From a virus, in IMG/VR virus record IMGVR_UViG_3300043775_002158, positions 41,375 to 105,374 of that record: a stretch of DNA of 64,000 bases, one strand, 5' to 3'. Below are positions 447 through 37,660 of the stretch, piece after piece (position 1 is the stretch's first letter; each line of letters opens with the position of its first letter). The position numbers were made by a program, and so were the translations under genes. The notes under the pieces are model-generated. The model had not been told where the DNA came from and ran no database searches. It was given only the letters and a program-made list of their open reading frames with translations.

Positions 447-477
447 CTTAGGTCGAAAACTCAAAAAAGTCGAAGTG

Positions 478-875
478 TGGAGACGAAGGGAGTCGAACCC
501 TTGTCTTTCCTGTTCAACAATAAATGACTACACGTTTATTCAATTGGTTCTCAATTGACAAATAGAAGGTTAATTACAGGAAACCAACAATACTGTCCCT
601 AACCGGATTTTCATGAGCCGTCAAGTTTGCTCCAACACTCTTGGGTGGTGTTACACCGTAAGGACTTCTGTTCCAAGGTTATATGTCCGTCGACCCGTGC
701 GTAGAGGCTAATCTAATTAGGCTGCTACTTTAGAAGTTGCAAGTAAACCTGCAATTTCCATTGTGTTGTAAACGTTGTCGTTTAATTTTCTTCACCGTGG
801 ATTAAAGTCATAGATGAATTCTGACTACGTGCCATTTACCCCTGATACCTGAAATCAAATCCAAGGCGTCCCCAG
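478..875 (-). ncRNA. ssrA: tmRNA (transfer-messenger RNA)
   Basis: The two ends form a tRNA-like acceptor: 5' GGGGACG (875-869) pairs with CGTCTCC (485-479), including a G-U third pair, the alanine identity element; discriminator A, no encoded CCA. The 3' side has a T arm (GGGTTCGACTCCC). Near the 5' end are GGATTTGATTTCAGG and GGCACGTAGTCAGAATT, close to Bacteroidota tmRNAs. After GAAAATTAAAC a resume codon GAC (779-777) opens a tag DNVYNTMEIAGLLATSKVAA, stop TAA at 719-717. The tag ends in VAA as Clp-directed tags do, but at 20 encoded residues it is about twice the usual Bacteroidota length. Length ~398 nt is normal. Confidence 0.9.
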
Positions 876-17909: not shown

Positions 17910-18733
17910 AAAAATTTTTATTAATCGTCGGTTTAATTTTAATTTTAACGTTATTTGTTTCAATAATGTTAAACGCTCAAGTAAGTTCTTGGAGAAATAA
18001 TTCACAACAAAGAACAACCGCACCAAGAATTCAACCATCAACTCCACAAAGAAATGACGTTAGTCGATGGAGAACACAAACAGAACCAATTAGACCAGGT
18101 CAACCTATTCCAAATAGACCTTTAGTGAGAAGATGGAGAGGTGGGGGTGTAAATCCATATGGATTAATGTGGGGAAATTGGGGGTGGTATCAACCATACC
18201 CATATATTTGGTACGATGATTATGGATGGAGACATAGAAGTGTAGTTCGTGTTTATGAAAATGGAAAAAGAGATACTGTTAAAAAGGAAACATATTATAC
18301 TTTAGGTATTGGACATACAAATAACAATCAAGCTTCTTTTTGGGGTGCTGTAGGTGGTAATAAAGGATACTTTATTGTTGATTACGTTATGACCTATGAA
18401 ATTGATCGCAACCAATATTTTCCAAATGGTAAAATTAATGAAGTTGATTTTCCGTTAAGTAAAAATGACTTTTTAAAAGAGGGTACATTATATCTTGGTG
18501 GAGGTAAGAGATTCGGTAAATTAGGTGTCCATGGAATGGTTGGATTTGGAAATGAAATTATTAGATACCAAGGTAAAGATGATTTAGGTGGTATTTCATT
18601 TCCTAAATCAAATTCAAATTTTACAACATTTAAATTTGGTATTATAAGAGATTTCAAATTCTTCACATTAAAGTTAGATAGAGACCCAATAAGAAATTAC
18701 AATCAAATATCAATTGGATTGAATAATAAGTAA
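17906..18733 (+). CDS. exported protein with Trp/Pro/Arg-rich N-terminus
   Basis: 275 residues, signal peptide ending LNAQ near 26. Residues 30-110 are rich in Arg, Pro, Trp and Gly (RRWRGGG, WYQPYPYIWYDDYGW). The remainder has alternating strands with aromatic residues (YTLGIGHTN, GTLYLGGGKRF, FTTFKFGIIRDF, FFTLKLDR) as in small outer-membrane barrels. Coupled by overlaps to both neighbours. No family is recognised. Confidence 0.6.
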   Translation: MKKFLLIVGLILILTLFVSIMLNAQVSSWRNNSQQRTTAPRIQPSTPQRNDVSRWRTQTEPIRPGQPIPNRPLVRRWRGGGVNPYGLMWGNWGWYQPYPYIWYDDYGWRHRSVVRVYENGKRDTVKKETYYTLGIGHTNNNQASFWGAVGGNKGYFIVDYVMTYEIDRNQYFPNGKINEVDFPLSKNDFLKEGTLYLGGGKRFGKLGVHGMVGFGNEIIRYQGKDDLGGISFPKSNSNFTTFKFGIIRDFKFFTLKLDRDPIRNYNQISIGLNNK

Positions 18734-20181
18734 TGAAAAAAAATCTAATTGTTTTATTAATTTTATGTTTCATAGGTTTTAAATCATATGGACAAACATT
18801 TACACAAACATTTATTGATAAATGTACAGGTGAAGTTAAAGTTGCAACAACAACTTATATAAGTGGTAATGCATTTGTATCTTTTTATAATCAAAGTAAA
18901 ACATTCACACCTTTAGAAGTCCAAACAGGACAATTACAATTATGGTTACAAACAACTTACGCAACATATAACTCGATGGCCTGTCCAACAAATCAGGTAG
19001 TTCAACAAACAATACAAAATACAGTTACACAGGCGGCGGCAACCGCAGCAAGTAATGCAGCATCTTCGGCGGCAAGTAATGCGGCATCTTCAGCTGCAAG
19101 TAATGCGGCAAGTTCATCGGCATCAACTGCGGCGAGTTCGTCGGCATCAACTGCTGCGAGTTCGTCGGCATCAAGTAGTTCCGCCGCAACATCAAGTTCA
19201 AGTACAACAACATCATCTAGTAGTTCATCTTCATCTAGTAGTTCATCTTCATCTAGTAGTTCATCTTCATCTTCTGAATCAAAGACTGAGAGTAGTTCTT
19301 CATCATCGGAATCAAAATCTGAAACAAAGAGTGAATCAAAATCTGAAAGTAAATCAGAAGAAAAAAAATCAGAAAGTAAATCAGAAGAAAAAAAAGAAGA
19401 GAAAAAGTCAGAGGAAAAGAAAGAGGAAAAGAAAGAGGAAAAGAAAGAGGAAAAGAAAGAGGAGAAGAAGAAGGAAGAAAAAAAAGATAAAAAGGAAGAT
19501 AAGAAAGAAAAAAAGAAAGGAGGAGTATTAAATCCGATGTTAATTGCCTCAGATTATACTGTTGCTCAAAATGCGGATAAAAGTTTTGGTTCTATGTTAG
19601 GGTTGGGTTGGAGTAAATCATCATTAATGGGTGACGAATCTTTTTCAGCAAATGCAATTATATGGAGTAACCTAAAACAATTTGCGTTAGGTGGTGGATA
19701 TACCAAAATGGACTTTAGTGGTGGTAAATTAAATGCCATACATTCTTATGGTGTAACAACCGCATATTTGAATGGTAATTATATGGGTTTACTTGGTTAT
19801 ACTTACATTAAACCACATCCTAAATTTGGAACTTACGGATACAATATAGGTGTTGTAAATTTATTCATTAAAGATGAAAAAGGTAAATTTAATTATAGTG
19901 TTGTAAGTTCAGCTGTTGCATTTTGGACTAAACCATATTCATATTCAAAGAAACTTTCAATATCACCTCAATTATTTGTTATGTCTTCACCATTATCTTA
20001 TAATACAGTTACGGGAGTAAGTATGGTTAATAGACACGCAGGATATTTGGTTGGAGGTTCGTTTGATTATAAATTAAGTAAAAGATTTGGGTTTACTTTT
20101 AATTATAGAATGAACGGATCAACTCAACCATATAGTCCTATTTTACATAACTTCTTGATTGGTAGTAGAATGACATTATAA
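18733..20181 (+). CDS. outer-membrane barrel protein with Ser-rich and Lys/Glu-rich linker
   Basis: 482 residues, signal peptide ending SYGQ. A ~75-residue N-terminal domain with two Cys is followed by Ala/Ser repeats, a poly-Ser tract and a Lys/Glu helix (about residues 95-262 in all), then a beta-barrel region whose C-terminal third parallels the protein at 12756 (ISPQLFVMSS ... DYKLSKRFGFTFNYRMN). The linker could hold the N-terminal domain away from the membrane or cross the cell wall. The repeats are prone to slippage at DNA level. Confidence 0.65.
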   Translation: MKKNLIVLLILCFIGFKSYGQTFTQTFIDKCTGEVKVATTTYISGNAFVSFYNQSKTFTPLEVQTGQLQLWLQTTYATYNSMACPTNQVVQQTIQNTVTQAAATAASNAASSAASNAASSAASNAASSSASTAASSSASTAASSSASSSSAATSSSSTTTSSSSSSSSSSSSSSSSSSSSSESKTESSSSSSESKSETKSESKSESKSEEKKSESKSEEKKEEKKSEEKKEEKKEEKKEEKKEEKKKEEKKDKKEDKKEKKKGGVLNPMLIASDYTVAQNADKSFGSMLGLGWSKSSLMGDESFSANAIIWSNLKQFALGGGYTKMDFSGGKLNAIHSYGVTTAYLNGNYMGLLGYTYIKPHPKFGTYGYNIGVVNLFIKDEKGKFNYSVVSSAVAFWTKPYSYSKKLSISPQLFVMSSPLSYNTVTGVSMVNRHAGYLVGGSFDYKLSKRFGFTFNYRMNGSTQPYSPILHNFLIGSRMTL

Positions 20182-20672: not shown

Positions 20673-21161
20673 TTATTCGTCACCAATTGTACGATCCCAT
20701 TTTGCTTTACGTTCTTCGGGGGATAACATGTGTATTTCACTAATAGTGTGGTTAATTTGAACTCTTACACAAGTTTGGGGTAATTTACAATTCATCAAAT
20801 AATTATTAATATAACCCATCATATTTGCCGCACCAATAGGGTTTGCTGAATGTACATATATCTGAGGTAATGGTATTTTTTCATTCATACTTTCACTAAC
20901 CAAATAACGGCAACAATCCATACCTGTCCTTTCATTAATGTTGTTGTAATCCAACATATAATTATTTTTTACATTTGTATAATACTCAACCATCGCACCT
21001 TCACCTAAATCATGATCTAAGGATATTAATTCAAATGTACCTAATCCATGTAATTTTATTTGTGCAACAAATTCGTCATAGTTTCTTACAACAATCCAAT
21101 CTTCATCTACGGGAGTTCTTATATCGTCAAGGTATAATCTTAATCTTTTATTAATTTTCAT
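20673..21161 (-). CDS. cyclic-phosphate-processing receiver-like (cREC) protein
   Basis: 162 residues. LYLDDIRTP (9-17), an RNYDEF segment and SLDHDLGEG (47-55) place acidic residues as in receiver domains, but the downstream pattern HSANPIGAANM is the signature of the cREC group, predicted to process 2',3'-cyclic phosphate RNA ends. It overlaps the RNA ligase gene by 11 nt and lies with a polynucleotide-kinase-like gene, which is the expected company for this family. Confidence 0.75.
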   Translation of the reverse strand: MKINKRLRLYLDDIRTPVDEDWIVVRNYDEFVAQIKLHGLGTFELISLDHDLGEGAMVEYYTNVKNNYMLDYNNINERTGMDCCRYLVSESMNEKIPLPQIYVHSANPIGAANMMGYINNYLMNCKLPQTCVRVQINHTISEIHMLSPEERKAKWDRTIGDE

Positions 21162-22221
21162 CTTTTTTAAATGGTTTTGAATATTTTGGCTTAATTAATT
21201 TCCAAATTATTTCGTCTACTTTCGAATTATTATTATCCCACATTGCAAACATTATTGGATGTAAAACTTTTTGTTGTTTCATTACAAATTCCGCAAATTC
21301 TTTTTTGGATGGTTCGGGGTCTCTATCACCAAATTTTCCATACCTAAAACCATCGTGTAATTTTCCTGCGGTCTCTCTTAATTGAAAACATGAATACCTT
21401 AAATCACTAATTGTTTTTTTAACCCAATCATTAAATTCATCTGGAACTTTTTCAAGTAGTTCATCAAATGGTTTATTATCTTTTAGATATTCCCATATAT
21501 CTTGATTAGATATGTTTGTTAAAATTTTATGAAGACGTTTATATTCTTCACCTTTGATTTTCATACGAAAACCATTCTTAAATTTAATTACATATCCTTC
21601 TCTATCTTTACTTATTTCTTCTTTAAGTAAATCATACGATTCACCCCAAGTCTTGTATGTCATAACAACTTCAAATCCAGAATCTTGTGTCCAAAACAAA
21701 CTACTATCAGGTATTTCTTCACCTGTTTCTGTATGAATGGCACCAAGAACAACTAATTTTTCTTCACCTTTATAATCAACAACAATTCTATTTTCAGGAT
21801 AAATTATTTCAAACAAATATGTGTTATCTTTTCTCCACGATCCAATATCGTGTCTATCAAGAATTTCTTTTCCTTTGATAGCTTGTGGTGAGGTAAATGA
21901 CCCACGAGTTGCCATTATCCATTCACCTTCATAATTAAAAAGAATACCTAATGAACCATCCATCTTTTCGTAAACAACATAATCTTCATTAGGAATATCT
22001 TCTGGTTTATGTTCTTCGTAATTAAAAAATTTCTTAAATGGTCTTGCAACAATGTCACCTTTTGAATTGATAACCAACCCACGACATTGTAAAGTAATAT
22101 CATCCCACAATCTTTCGTATTGAACTTTTGGTGAATAGTTCCATATAGTCAAATCTTTCGTAGGATGTGTTTGTTTGTGTAACAAACCATCATTATAATA
22201 TTTTTCTAATATGTCTAACAT
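21151..22221 (-). CDS. RNA ligase (T4 Rnl1-like)
   Basis: 356 residues. Nucleotidyltransferase motif I is YEKMDGS with nucleophile Lys86; upstream CRGLVI and PFKKFFNYEE match the conserved N-terminal RG and PFxKFFN elements of phage RNA ligases. Motif III-like YLFEIIYPENRIV, motif IV EGYVIKF and motif V FRMKIKGEEY follow in order. A C-terminal helical domain of about 110 residues fits tRNA recognition. It would seal 3'-OH/5'-P breaks, such as those made by host anticodon nucleases. Confidence 0.88.
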   Translation of the reverse strand: MLDILEKYYNDGLLHKQTHPTKDLTIWNYSPKVQYERLWDDITLQCRGLVINSKGDIVARPFKKFFNYEEHKPEDIPNEDYVVYEKMDGSLGILFNYEGEWIMATRGSFTSPQAIKGKEILDRHDIGSWRKDNTYLFEIIYPENRIVVDYKGEEKLVVLGAIHTETGEEIPDSSLFWTQDSGFEVVMTYKTWGESYDLLKEEISKDREGYVIKFKNGFRMKIKGEEYKRLHKILTNISNQDIWEYLKDNKPFDELLEKVPDEFNDWVKKTISDLRYSCFQLRETAGKLHDGFRYGKFGDRDPEPSKKEFAEFVMKQQKVLHPIMFAMWDNNNSKVDEIIWKLIKPKYSKPFKKDEN

Positions 22222-22224
22222 AAA

Positions 22225-22467
22225 TTAGTTTAATCTTTTGTGGAAACCGATGTTGTAGGTATGTTTTAACCAATTGAGTGACAAATATATACCACATATT
22301 TTGTTTTTCCAAATAGAAACGTGAGCATCGGGAAAACAAGTTTCAAAATAAAAATAAATAAAAGGTAAAGGATATAATGACCATTGGTTTTTTTGTAAGT
22401 TAGCGTGGAATTTCATCTTTGGTTTTGGATTTACGGACTCAAAAAACGAAATAATAAATTCACTCAT
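22225..22467 (-). CDS. hypothetical protein in RNA-repair operon, 80 aa
   Basis: Aromatic-rich (YPLPFIYFYFETCF) with no signal peptide. It is packed between kinase and ligase, 3 nt from the ligase start and touching the kinase stop, so it is co-translated with them and may be a small partner or substrate-binding subunit. No family is recognised. Confidence 0.6.
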   Translation of the reverse strand: MSEFIISFFESVNPKPKMKFHANLQKNQWSLYPLPFIYFYFETCFPDAHVSIWKNKICGIYLSLNWLKHTYNIGFHKRLN

Positions 22468-22895
22468 TAAAGTTTAATTTGAAATCTATTTTTCATTTGT
22501 TGAAGTTTATCTTCGGGAACTCCATGAACATTTTCATTCCCGTGTCTATTTTCAACAATTACAGTATGAACTCTGTAATTATATCTTTCTGCCATTTTAA
22601 AATACTCATCCATTTCCCATTCTTGAGTAAACGTATTTGCAACAACTATTCTTGCTCTTTGTTGTCTCATTCTTTCTGAACATCTAAATTGACAATAGTT
22701 ATGTGCTTCCTTTAATTTAGTCGGATCAAAATTGTAATCACCTTCTTTATCTTCAAAAAAATCATCAGCAGATAAAACTTCAGGTTCATCCGTACTTCTA
22801 AGTTGTAATATAATCTTTGCTAATGTTGATTTACCCGAACCTGGTAAACCTCGTAATAATATTAATTCGCCCTGTGTTTCGTTTACACTATCCAT
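22467..22895 (-). CDS. P-loop polynucleotide 5'-kinase-like protein
   Basis: 142 residues. Walker A GLPGSGKST (16-24), a lid/Asp region SADDFFED after 43 and a VVANTFTQEWEM segment match the AAA/Pnkp-like kinase group. No phosphatase domain is attached, which leaves the 3'-end healing to another protein, perhaps the cREC-like partner. With the ligase it forms the heal-and-seal pair for RNA repair. Confidence 0.8.
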   Translation of the reverse strand: MDSVNETQGELILLRGLPGSGKSTLAKIILQLRSTDEPEVLSADDFFEDKEGDYNFDPTKLKEAHNYCQFRCSERMRQQRARIVVANTFTQEWEMDEYFKMAERYNYRVHTVIVENRHGNENVHGVPEDKLQQMKNRFQIKL

Positions 22896-23348: not shown

Positions 23349-25361
23349 TTATTTTTTTGAAATTAATAAATTTTCGTCCTTATATTTCAAAGTATACTGT
23401 ACATTTTCTAAAATATTACCTTTTAAAATTTCTTCACTTAAGAAATCTTCACAAAGATTTTGTATGATACGTTTTAACGGACGTGCACCATATTCTTCTT
23501 GTGAATTTAATTCGTAAATTCTATTAATAACAGTTTTATCAAAATTAATTTTGTAATTCTTTTCAACTAAACGTTTATTTAATTTACTCATTTCAATTCC
23601 AATAATTTTTCTTAATGTTTCATCATTTAATGCGTTGAATAAGATAATATCATCAATACGATTTAAAAATTCAGGATTGAATTGTTGTTTTAACGCCTTT
23701 TGAATCATTGTCTTTCTAACTTCATATTGTTGTTCTTCACTTGAAGATGTTTTAAATCCAACACCTCCACCTAAATCAGATACACGTTTGGCTCCTACGT
23801 TAGAAGTCATGATAACAATGGTATTTGTGAAATTAATTTTTCTACCAAATGAATCTGTTAAATGTCCTTCATCTAAAATTTGAAGCAGGATATTGAATAC
23901 ATCCTTATGGGCCTTCTCAATCTCATCAAATAAAACAACAGAGAATGGGTTATTTTTAATCTTCTCAGTCAACTGACCTCCTTCATCATAACCAACATAA
24001 CCTGGAGGTGAACCGATTAATTTAGATACATTATGTTTCTCCATATATTCACTCATATCAACACGAATGATTTTATCGGGATCTCCAAATAATGTTTCGG
24101 CAATTGATTTAGCAAGATATGTTTTACCAACACCCGTTGATCCGATAAAGATAAATGAACCAATTGGTTTGTTTGCTTCTTTAATACCAACACGATTTCT
24201 TCTAATTGCCTTAGAGATAGTTTTAACCGCCTCGTCTTGACCAATTACTTTAGAAGTTAATGTTTCTTCTAATTGTAATAATTTTTTAGTTTCTTTCGTA
24301 TCAAGTTTAGTAATAGGAACTCCCGTCATATCACTAATAATGTCATAAACATCATCTAACGAAACGGGTGTTTTATTATCTTTTTGTTTTTCTGTCCATT
24401 TTAATTTTTCATCTTCCAGTTTTGTTGTTACTTTTCTTTCTTCATCACGAAGTTTTGCCGCTTGTTCGTAATTTTGATTTTTTACAACTTGGACTTTCTT
24501 TTCTTTAATAACGTCAATTTCCTTTTTTAATTTTTCAATTACTTCAGGAATTTTAGATGATACTCTTTTTTCAGAACCTAATTCATCTAATACATCAATT
24601 GCCTTATCAGGAAATTGTCTATCAGTAATATAACGTCCTGAAAGTTTAACAATAGTTTCTAATACACCATCTTCGTAACTTACTTTATGAAAGTCTTGGT
24701 ATGATGTTGTTAAGTTTTTAAGAATTTCTAATGTTTCCTCTTCAGTTGGTTCTTGTAAAACTATTTTTTGAAAACGACGAACTAATGCAGCATCTTTTTC
24801 AATGTGTTTTTTAAATTCATCAAATGTTGTTGCACCAATACATTGTAATTCTCCACGTGCTAATGCGGGTTTCAAAATATTTGCGGCGTCCATCGCACCA
24901 CTTGCATTTCCCGCACCAACCATAGTATGTAATTCATCAATAAAGATAATTACGTTTGGTGCTTCTTGTAATTCGTTAATAATTGCTTTAATTCTTTCTT
25001 CAAATTGACCACGATATTTTGTGCCGGCAACTAATGAAGTTAAATCTAAAGACATAATACGTTTGTCTAAAAGATTTGAAGGACAATCTCCTTTATAAAT
25101 CATTAATGCTAATTTCTCAACTAGTGCTGATTTACCCACACCAGCTTCACCAACAATTACTGCGTTGTTTTTCTTTTTACGAGAAAGAATTTGAGCAATT
25201 CTTTTTACCTCTTTATCCCTACCAATTACAGGATCAATTTTACCCTCTTCAGCCATCTTAATAAGATCACGTGAGAAATTGTCTAAGATTGGTGTATTTG
25301 ACCCTTTTCTAACCTTCTTGGGGTTTGTGGTTGGTCCGTCCTCAAAAAAATCTACTGACAT
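23349..25361 (-). CDS. ClpC-like AAA+ unfoldase lacking the N-domain
   Basis: 670 residues with two AAA+ modules: Walker A GEAGVGKS (71-78) and Walker B IIFIDE (138-143) in the first, GSTGVGKT (407-414) and VVLFDE (475-480) in the second, pore loops KYRGQFEE and GYVGYDEGG. Between them a short coiled insert with a UVR-like [12 protein letters not shown] (297-308) marks ClpC rather than ClpB. The tripeptide VGF at 534-536 occupies the ClpP-docking loop. The usual ~145-residue N-domain is missing. It should thread substrates into host ClpP. Confidence 0.85.
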
Positions 25362-25539: not shown

Positions 25540-25896
25540 ATGATAACATTATTTAAAGACCCATTTTTTAGAGGAATAGATACGAAGGGATTTCTATCTA
25601 CTCCTGAAACTAACATCGAAAAAGATGATTTGGGATACACAGTATCCATAAGTGTTCCTGGTTTAACAAAGGAAGATCTTAAAATTTCCGTTAAAGAAGG
25701 AGTATTAAAAATTACCTATCAAAAAGAAGAAGGTGATATTACAAGACATTTTATTGGAAGTTTTGTGAAATCATACAATATTCCAGAAGATGTTAAAGAA
25801 AAAGATATCGAGGGTAAGGTGGAAAACGGAGTTCTAACTATTTCATTACCAATTGATAAGAAGAAAAGTTTAGAAAGATTAATTTCTTTGAACTAA
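25540..25896 (+). CDS. small heat-shock protein, Hsp20/alpha-crystallin
   Basis: 118 residues. After a short N-terminus (MITLFKDPFFRGID) comes the alpha-crystallin domain: ETNIEKDDLGYTVSISVPGLTKEDL, VLKITYQ, FVKSYNIPEDV, IEGKVENGVLTISLPI. The N-terminus is shorter than in most Hsp20s, so large oligomers may not form. T4-like phages carry related proteins. Divergent from the clpC-like gene with a shared palindromic region, suggesting joint stress-like control. Confidence 0.88.
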   Translation: MITLFKDPFFRGIDTKGFLSTPETNIEKDDLGYTVSISVPGLTKEDLKISVKEGVLKITYQKEEGDITRHFIGSFVKSYNIPEDVKEKDIEGKVENGVLTISLPIDKKKSLERLISLN

Positions 25897-25964: not shown

Positions 25965-26216
25965 ATGTCAGTAAAAAAAGAAAAAATCAACGGTAAGATG
26001 ATTGAAGTATCAATCAAATCAACAAGTTTAAACAAAGCAACTTACGATGCTTTAAAAGAAAACTTGAGAGTATCTTTCGTAAATGGTAGCATTTACGAAT
26101 ACCAAGGAGTTCCATCTAAAACTTTTACACAGTTTAGATTGGCTAAGTCACAAGGTAAGTTCTTAAACGAGAGTATCGTTAAAGCTTACAAATACAAAAA
26201 AGTTAGAACTATCTAA
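25965..26216 (+). CDS. KTSC-domain protein, copy 1
   Basis: 83 residues covering a whole KTSC domain: SLNKATYDALKENLRVSF, NGSIYEYQGVP, a LAKSQGKFLNESI segment and KAYKYKKV. The domain has been linked to RNA or nucleotide metabolism but its activity is unsettled. A diverged second copy follows after a terminator and a late motif, so the two are regulated apart. Confidence 0.8.
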   Translation: MSVKKEKINGKMIEVSIKSTSLNKATYDALKENLRVSFVNGSIYEYQGVPSKTFTQFRLAKSQGKFLNESIVKAYKYKKVRTI

Positions 26217-26224
26217 TTAAACTT

Positions 26225-26252
26225 AAACCCCTCTAAATGAGGGGTTTATTTT
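26225..26252 (+). terminator. rho-independent terminator
   Basis: AAACCCCT/AGGGGTTT stem with T-run, directly followed by the late motif at 26255. Confidence 0.85.
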
Positions 26253-26254
26253 TT

Positions 26255-26263
26255 GATATTTAT
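26255..26263 (+). promoter_or_regulatory. late-type promoter motif GATATTTAT
   Basis: 27 nt before the ATG at 26290 and directly after a terminator. Confidence 0.5.
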
Positions 26264-26289
26264 TATCTATAATCTATAAAACATACATT

Positions 26290-26535
26290 ATGGGAATAAT
26301 ATCAGAAAAAATTGATGGTAAACTTATTACTGTCATTGTACAATCATCCAATCTTAAAGAAGCCACTTACAATACCGAAACTGAAGATTTGACCATTATA
26401 TTCAATAACGGAAGTATTTATGAGTATAATAAAGTCCCTTGGTCTAAGTTCACCAAATTTAGGTTAGCCGAATCACAAGGAAAACACTTTAACGAAAACA
26501 TCGCTAAAGTACATAAGTACACAAAAAAAGGATGA
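26290..26535 (+). CDS. KTSC-domain protein, copy 2
   Basis: 81 residues, about half identical to copy 1 through the domain (NLKEATYNTETEDLTIIF, NGSIYEYNKVP, RLAESQGKHFNENI). ATGA overlap with the nucleotidyltransferase gene indicates coupled translation. Confidence 0.8.
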   Translation: MGIISEKIDGKLITVIVQSSNLKEATYNTETEDLTIIFNNGSIYEYNKVPWSKFTKFRLAESQGKHFNENIAKVHKYTKKG

Positions 26536-36976: not shown

Positions 36977-37660
36977 ATGAAGATATTAGGACCCAAAGAA
37001 CTTGGAACAGGAATTTTAATAGAATACGACGCAGGACACGTATCTCCAGACGAGAATAAAAAAATTATACAGGAAATGAAAGGTGTGGACTTCTCAGAAG
37101 ACCTAATCCTTTATGCTGTTTTACAAAAATTCGATACTCCAAATAAGAACGGAAGGATTTATCCTGAAATGTTACTTAAGAGAGAAAACGAAAAATATCA
37201 AACACTAATTAAGAAGGGAGGAGCTTTAAATGAATTAAATCACCCTTCATCTTCACTAATCGATTTAGATCGAGTATCACATTCAATTTTAGAAACTTGG
37301 TGGGACGGTAAAATATTAATGGGTAAGATCAAATTATTCACTTCTCCTGGATGGAAGAAGATGGGTATCGTTTCAACCAAAGGAGACCAAGCGGCAATGT
37401 TATTAATGAACGGAGCAACTTTAGGTATCTCTTCACGTGGTGTAGGATCACTTAAACAAGTTAAAGGTGAGAACATCGTACAAGATGATTTCGAGTTAGT
37501 TTGTTTTGATTTAGTGTCATCACCATCAACCCCTGGTGCTTATATTTTTAAAGACCCATCAGAAAGAGACCAATATCAAGAGTCTGAAATTAAAAAACCA
37601 ACACTTGATAGTAGAATGTCAAAACTTATGGGCAATTTAGATACATTTCTATCTAAATAA
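36977..37660 (+). CDS. prohead core protease (T4 gp21-like)
   Basis: 227 residues with the herpes/T4 protease plan: NKNGRIYPEMLL near 57, LNELNHPS with His89, and GISSRGVGS around Ser152-153, which supply the His/Ser catalytic pair. Lies directly before scaffold and capsid genes as in T4. It would cut scaffold, capsid and core proteins at [LI]xE sites. Confidence 0.88.
   Translation: MKILGPKELGTGILIEYDAGHVSPDENKKIIQEMKGVDFSEDLILYAVLQKFDTPNKNGRIYPEMLLKRENEKYQTLIKKGGALNELNHPSSSLIDLDRVSHSILETWWDGKILMGKIKLFTSPGWKKMGIVSTKGDQAAMLLMNGATLGISSRGVGSLKQVKGENIVQDDFELVCFDLVSSPSTPGAYIFKDPSERDQYQESEIKKPTLDSRMSKLMGNLDTFLSK

Follow-up and report, generated by a model that had tools for sequence, protein, structure and literature searches.

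A ClpC-type unfoldase lacking the N-domain in a lineage of large Bacteroidota phages that also encodes ClpP and a tmRNA

Introduction

Host adaptors and phosphoarginine work through the N-domain of ClpC. If a virus encodes a ClpC-type unfoldase from which this domain is missing, then it has to be asked which peptidase, if any, such a protein serves and how its substrates are chosen. The window analysed here (viz. the whole stretch of 64,000 nucleotides, to which the coordinates below refer) encodes a protein of this kind, and the lineage to which it belongs is one of large bacteria-killing viruses of Bacteroidota. An earlier note had suggested that this protein, together with a phage tmRNA and an Hsp20, forms a phage-controlled proteolysis route that uses host ClpP and ignores host adaptors. 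The lineage, as described below, has shed the domain by which bacteria regulate ClpC, yet a ClpP and an RNA for tagging are encoded in its own genomes, so that one can test directly whether a virus runs a protease for quality control or host takeover in full and independently of its host.

Results

Anatomy of the unfoldase

Relatives of this clpC gene are encoded in at least 570 stretches of virus contigs. The relatives referred to below are the best 80 of these (77-97% identical), and since the IMG/VR contigs are partly redundant, counts among them are not independent. The gene and the main features of its product are as follows.

23349-25361 (-): clpC-type AAA+ unfoldase without an N-domain, open reading frame of 670 aa (Pfam, PDB relatives, AlphaFold model)
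25302-25361 (-): N-terminal tail, residues 1-20 (M-S/A-VDFFE...), in place of the Clp_N domain; predicted to be disordered
25128-25151 (-): D1 Walker A, GEAGVGKS; G-D/E-x-GVGK-S/T in 80/80 relatives
25008-25022 (-): D1 pore loop, TKYRG; invariant in 80/80
24924-24950 (-): D1 Walker B, IIFIDELHT (alignment of relatives)
24378-24545 (-): M-domain/UVR insert, residues 273-328, a short ClpC-type coiled coil (Pfam, alignment, model)
24120-24143 (-): D2 Walker A, GSTGVGKT; invariant in 80/80
23988-24011 (-): D2 pore loop, SPPGYVGY (alignment of relatives)
23913-23939 (-): D2 Walker B, VVLFDEIEK (alignment of relatives)
23754-23762 (-): ClpP-docking tripeptide VGF, residues 534-536, aligned with the VGF of B. 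subtilis ClpC

The Pfam domains AAA, AAA_lid_9, UVR (residues 279-310, E 8e-6), AAA_2 and ClpB_D2-small are present in the protein, and both AAA+ modules are complete, with the Walker A/B motifs, arginine fingers and pore loops intact. The closest solved proteins are the ClpCs of S. aureus (747 bits) and B. subtilis (731 bits), and the top PDB folds for its AlphaFold model (mean pLDDT 81.5) are the ClpC subunits of ClpC/ClpP complexes. The M-domain is modelled as two helices (273-294 and 298-328), the loop carrying VGF (532-539) is flexible in the predicted model, and the linker between D1 and D2 is 87 residues long as against 88 in most of the cellular ClpCs measured. Among the 80 relatives the docking tripeptide is VGF in 75, MGF in 3 and LGF in 2, so that V/M/L-GF is found in all of them; VGF is also found in 59 of 80 cellular ClpCs. 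The two ATPase modules, the UVR-like insert and the VGF of the docking loop, which the earlier note had read from the letters, are thus confirmed by Pfam, alignment and the 80 relatives, as is its choice of ClpC over ClpB: the score with the ClpB model (804 bits) is below the cut-off of 1232, the M-domain is short and VGF is present, due to which an assignment to ClpB was rejected. Assignments to ClpA and ClpE were likewise rejected based on scores, M-domain length and the docking loop.

Absence of the N-domain

The earlier statement that the N-domain is lacking also holds. No match to Clp_N is found by Pfam in the 670-aa protein, its alignment with the S. aureus and B. subtilis ClpCs begins at ClpC residue 153-155, and cellular ClpCs have about 137-183 additional N-terminal residues in comparison to it. 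A truncation or frameshift artefact was rejected as the cause, because the N-domain is missing from all 80 best relatives in virus contigs, which all start with M-S/A-VD-F/Y-F, and because in each of them the reading frame is closed by a stop no more than 36 codons before the clpC start. A search of 12 lineage records for a Clp_N domain encoded separately gave none; its sensitivity is imperfect, as its control missed B. subtilis. Since the Clp_N double domain is absent, the product of 23349-25361 (-) is, as judged from its sequence, an N-domain-less ClpC-type variant and not a canonical ClpC.

Gene neighbourhood and phylogeny

The gene order around clpC is the same in the 80 relatives, with matches to the KTSC-domain genes in 80/80, to the large terminase in 77/80 and to a divergent Hsp20 in 52/80 of them.

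25540-25896 (+): small heat-shock protein Hsp20, divergent neighbour of clpC (E 8e-17)

The Hsp20 invoked earlier is therefore a real gene, but as it is found next to clpC in just 52 of the 80 relatives, it is not an essential part of the system. It is followed by two tandem KTSC-domain genes (25965-26535, +), both of which as queries give matches in all 80 related loci. Just downstream of clpC, a T4-type RNA ligase (PF09511), a P-loop kinase and a "cyclic-phosphate processing receiver" (cREC_REC) protein are encoded together (20673-22895, -); this group, which is conserved in most relatives, is a possible RNA-repair cassette. A secreted-type protein (18733-20181, +) contains in its mid-region very long low-complexity tracts, first of Ala/Ser, then of Ser and then of Glu/Lys.

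In phylogenetic trees, the ClpC of this lineage forms a deep clade of its own with a long stem, outside the ClpCs of Bacteroidota and other cellular ClpCs (support 100/99). The unfoldases of the huge phages LR756502 and LR745206, which also lack the N-domain, nest within the Bacteroidota ClpC, and the position of the remaining long-branched huge-phage sequences is unsure. Due to this nesting, the N-domain has probably been lost more than once, the loss in LR756502 and LR745206 appearing from the tree to be independent; an independent loss in huge phages which likewise have a ClpP would point to a strategy adopted repeatedly.

A ClpP encoded by the lineage

No ClpP is found in the window's own 105-kb record; since this record stops about 40 kb past clpC, the absence is uninformative. 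Among 19 related records, ClpP is present in 6/6 of those of at least 150 kb and in 0/13 of the shorter ones, and of 15 large records found via ClpP, 5 contain clpC. Taken together, clpC and the phage's own ClpP co-occur in 11/11 lineage records that are long enough for both. The two genes in these 11 records are on opposite strands and 103-124 kb apart, one pair spanning the record ends, and in the other 24 records (14 with clpC, 10 with clpP) the expected site of the partner, as calculated from this spacing, is outside the record, with one case borderline. A distance of about 14-16 kb separates clpC from the major capsid gene, which is on the side of clpP, in the records searched, and the window's record agrees with this. 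Based on this synteny, we infer that clpP is present in the window's own phage too, in the part of its genome past the end of the record. In one related record (G011:C1:87786-89467), the major capsid match is in two pieces, one of them within a large open frame of 834 aa, and the capsid gene there possibly carries an insertion or a frameshift.

The catalytic triad (Ser97, His122 and Asp171) is kept in 80/80 lineage ClpPs, and their best matches are true ClpPs. The score with PF00574 is 185 bits, and that with the PRK14514 ClpP model is 235 bits, which is below the curated cut-off of 361 for the latter. In trees, the lineage ClpPs group in one clade, the sister of which is a single huge-phage ClpP (L240). 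PHROGs ranks head proteases first for this protein; in NCBIfam, the head-maturation S14 proteases score 66-72 bits versus 235 for ClpP, and lineage clpP adjoins SbcC-like and exonuclease genes. In addition, a head protease of another type is encoded in the window, so that ClpP is not needed for this role.

36977-37660 (+): T4-type head-maturation protease, not ClpP (phrog_207, E 4e-40)

Based on the higher ClpP score, the non-capsid neighbours and this T4-type protease, the possibility that the lineage ClpP is a prohead protease was rejected. In the docking pocket, Tyr62 (E. coli numbering) is replaced by His in 80/80 lineage ClpPs, whereas it is Tyr in 15 of 16 Bacteroidota ClpPs, and Leu189 is replaced by Val/Ile. 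Due to the change of Tyr62, the mode of docking may not be the textbook one, and the altered pocket beside a kept VGF loop suggests, at the level of sequence, a matched phage ClpC/ClpP pair. The structure predicted for this ClpP from the lineage alignment has a pLDDT of 35, and no conclusion rests on it.

The phage tmRNA and its tag

The tmRNA that had been noticed earlier, with a tag of its own, is real.

477-873 (-): phage tmRNA (ARAGORN; Rfam RF00023, 77.7 bits versus a cut-off of 47)
717-779 (-): tmRNA tag reading frame, DNVYNTMEIAGLLATSKVAA and stop (ARAGORN; conserved in relatives, pN/pS 0.20)

The tags of the lineage are 20-21 aa long and either resemble GNVYNNMEVAGLLATSKVAA or end in ...NVAVA, their pattern being G/D-N-V-Y-N-x-M-E-V/I-A-G-L-L-A-T-S followed by KVAA or NVAVA. 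Two C-terminal forms, -SKVAA and -S-N/T-V-A/E-VA, are seen in related contigs (L322-L401). As ARAGORN missed or misread the tags of some relatives, these were taken from the alignment. Across 18 distinct 20-aa tag DNAs, from a pattern that matched 67 of 101 loci, pN/pS is 0.20, which indicates purifying selection on the peptide of the tag. The tmRNA, ClpC and ClpP occur together in 6/6 near-complete genomes in which the site of the tmRNA is covered (viz. G002, G032, G033, G034, G035 and G037). SmpB is found in 1 of 20 records; this gene (G002:1118-1519) and the tmRNA are separated by about 5 kb in a 310-kb relative, and the search of the remaining 19 records gave no SmpB. Possibly the SmpB of the host serves the window's phage.

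Possible control by the M-domain

In S. aureus, MecA binds to the N-domain of ClpC, which also stabilises the resting state, and a deltaN-ClpC binds ClpP without MecA but forms inactive head-to-head rods with no proteolysis; when F436A, R443A or a deletion of the M-domain is added, it degrades GFP-SsrA as fast as does MecA-activated ClpC, the SsrA tag being recognised by the ClpC pore and not by the N-domain (PMC12583610, PMC5699869). The architecture of this laboratory form is that of the phage ClpC, in which the residues of the M-domain tip are also kept. Y298, R305 and D306 of the phage protein correspond to F436, R443 and D444 of S. aureus, and the aromatic tip and Arg305/Asp306 are retained in 80/80 relatives; the phage has Tyr at the Phe436 position, as do many Bacteroidota ClpCs, whereas S. 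aureus has Phe. By analogy with deltaN-ClpC, the loss of the N-domain would not suffice to free the protease of restraint, and since the contact residues of the M-domain are kept, an activator or weaker contacts would be needed. However, deltaN-ClpC was engineered in S. aureus, whereas the phage form is natural and fixed across a lineage, and it offers a natural counterpart for the study of pore-based tag recognition and M-domain control.

Discussion

The explanation which we consider probable is that this natural N-domain-less ClpC docks by its VGF onto the ClpP encoded by the lineage, giving a phage-owned ClpCP protease whose substrates are chosen at the pore. The phage ClpC would assemble as a hexameric ATPase, and its VGF loop would dock it onto the phage ClpP. 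Host adaptors and phosphoarginine would be unable to steer it, because they act through the domain that is missing; this part of the earlier proposal is retained. Proteins with an exposed C-terminal tail would probably be the substrates and would enter the pore directly, and the contacts of the M-domain would still have to be loosened for activity. The best candidate for a substrate signal would be the tmRNA tag ending in -VAA or -VAVA, as a small hydrophobic/Ala tail is of the kind that the pore reads; the link is plausible because recognition of SsrA tags falls to the pore and does not involve the N-domain, and by this analogy tmRNA-tagged proteins would be plausible substrates of ClpCP. Against the pairing of the two proteins, the genes clpC and clpP do not form an operon and are separated by a long distance. 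A more elaborate form of the proposal is an orthogonal tag-and-destroy pathway, in which, where host collapse or nuclease defence has stalled ribosomes, the phage tmRNA would attach a degron particular to the phage. This degron would be read and destroyed by none but the N-domain-less ClpC of the phage together with its ClpP, the pocket of which is remodelled, and host adaptors would have no part in it; this pathway in its entirety we regard as unlikely.

If ClpCP (with either ClpP) instead removes specific host or phage proteins, e.g. defence proteins or regulators, directly or via a phage adaptor, then the tmRNA would be unrelated and serve in ribosome rescue only. This possibility, which overlaps with the phage-owned protease and differs from it in the substrates only, accords with the suggestion that a jumbo-phage ClpP acts against the host (PMC7824862), with the presence of SmpB in only 1/20 lineage records and with the M-domain contacts, which would require a releasing partner. 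However, the purifying selection on the tag and the retention of its -VAA/-VAVA ends suggest that a reader of the tag matters, and we view dedicated substrates as a tentative possibility on the less likely side.

The phage unfoldase could also dock on the host ClpP and redirect it, as the earlier note had assumed. VGF is the same tripeptide as in most cellular ClpCs (59/80), ClpP is present in every Bacteroidota genome checked, and the window's own record is without one. However, the lineage has its own ClpP in 11/11 sufficiently long records, and the changes in its docking pocket (Tyr62 to His, Leu189 to Val/Ile) point to a ClpC and a ClpP of the phage that are matched to each other; reliance on host ClpP is thus improbable, and it is possible that both the host and the phage ClpP are used. 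It is similarly hard to credit that the phage ClpC acts on its own as a disaggregase resembling ClpL/ClpB, or as a chaperone of virion assembly, with Hsp20, the ClpP having a separate task, since, despite the Hsp20 adjoining clpC in 52/80 relatives, the nearby virion genes and the ClpL-like head-to-head ring dimers of S. aureus deltaN-ClpC (PMC12583610), the docking tripeptide, which a ClpP-independent disaggregase need not keep, is kept in 80/80, the M-domain is of ClpC and not ClpB length, and 28/80 relatives have no Hsp20.

Comparison with known systems

The ClpCs of bacteria (S. aureus, B. subtilis and Bacteroidota) share D1, the UVR/M-domain, D2, the pore loops and the VGF loop with the phage protein at about 50-56% identity, but they have the N-domain, whereas the phage ClpC is without it and in a separate deep clade. 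The moraphages, large T4-like phages of Bacteroidota, share a "ClpA" family (VOG02072, occurrence 24), with Hsp20 in some; the main text of their description mentions neither ClpP nor tmRNA (PMC12619734), whereas the window's lineage has both. Among alphaproteobacterial jumbo phages, Atu_ph07 encodes ClpX, ClpA, ClpP and ClpS (PMC6102473), and AP-J-162 has six Clp genes, Hsp20 and a tmRNA (PMC11242549). The Clp ATPase of Sinorhizobium phage Phosso, unlike that of the window's phage, keeps an extra N-terminal region. The huge phages LR756502, LR745206, LR756508 and LR756504 encode an N-domain-less Clp unfoldase and a PF00574 match in the same genome, the ClpP of LR745206 being 61% identical to that of the lineage, and overall, of the huge phages outside the lineage that have Clp unfoldases, 6/7 have PF00574 matches. 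The tag of the bacterial tmRNA/SmpB-ClpXP system is Ala-ended, as is that of the phage tmRNA; however, the phage tag is of 20-21 aa, whereas the tags of Bacteroidota hosts are GENNYALAA-like and of 9-10 aa. A literature search for phage-encoded ClpP with tmRNA found no paper joining both. Hence, Clp components of phages are already known and it is their combination here that is new, viz. a lineage-fixed N-domain-less ClpC whose conserved place in the genome links it both to the phage's own ClpP and to a tmRNA, the tag of which is under selection and unlike that of the hosts.
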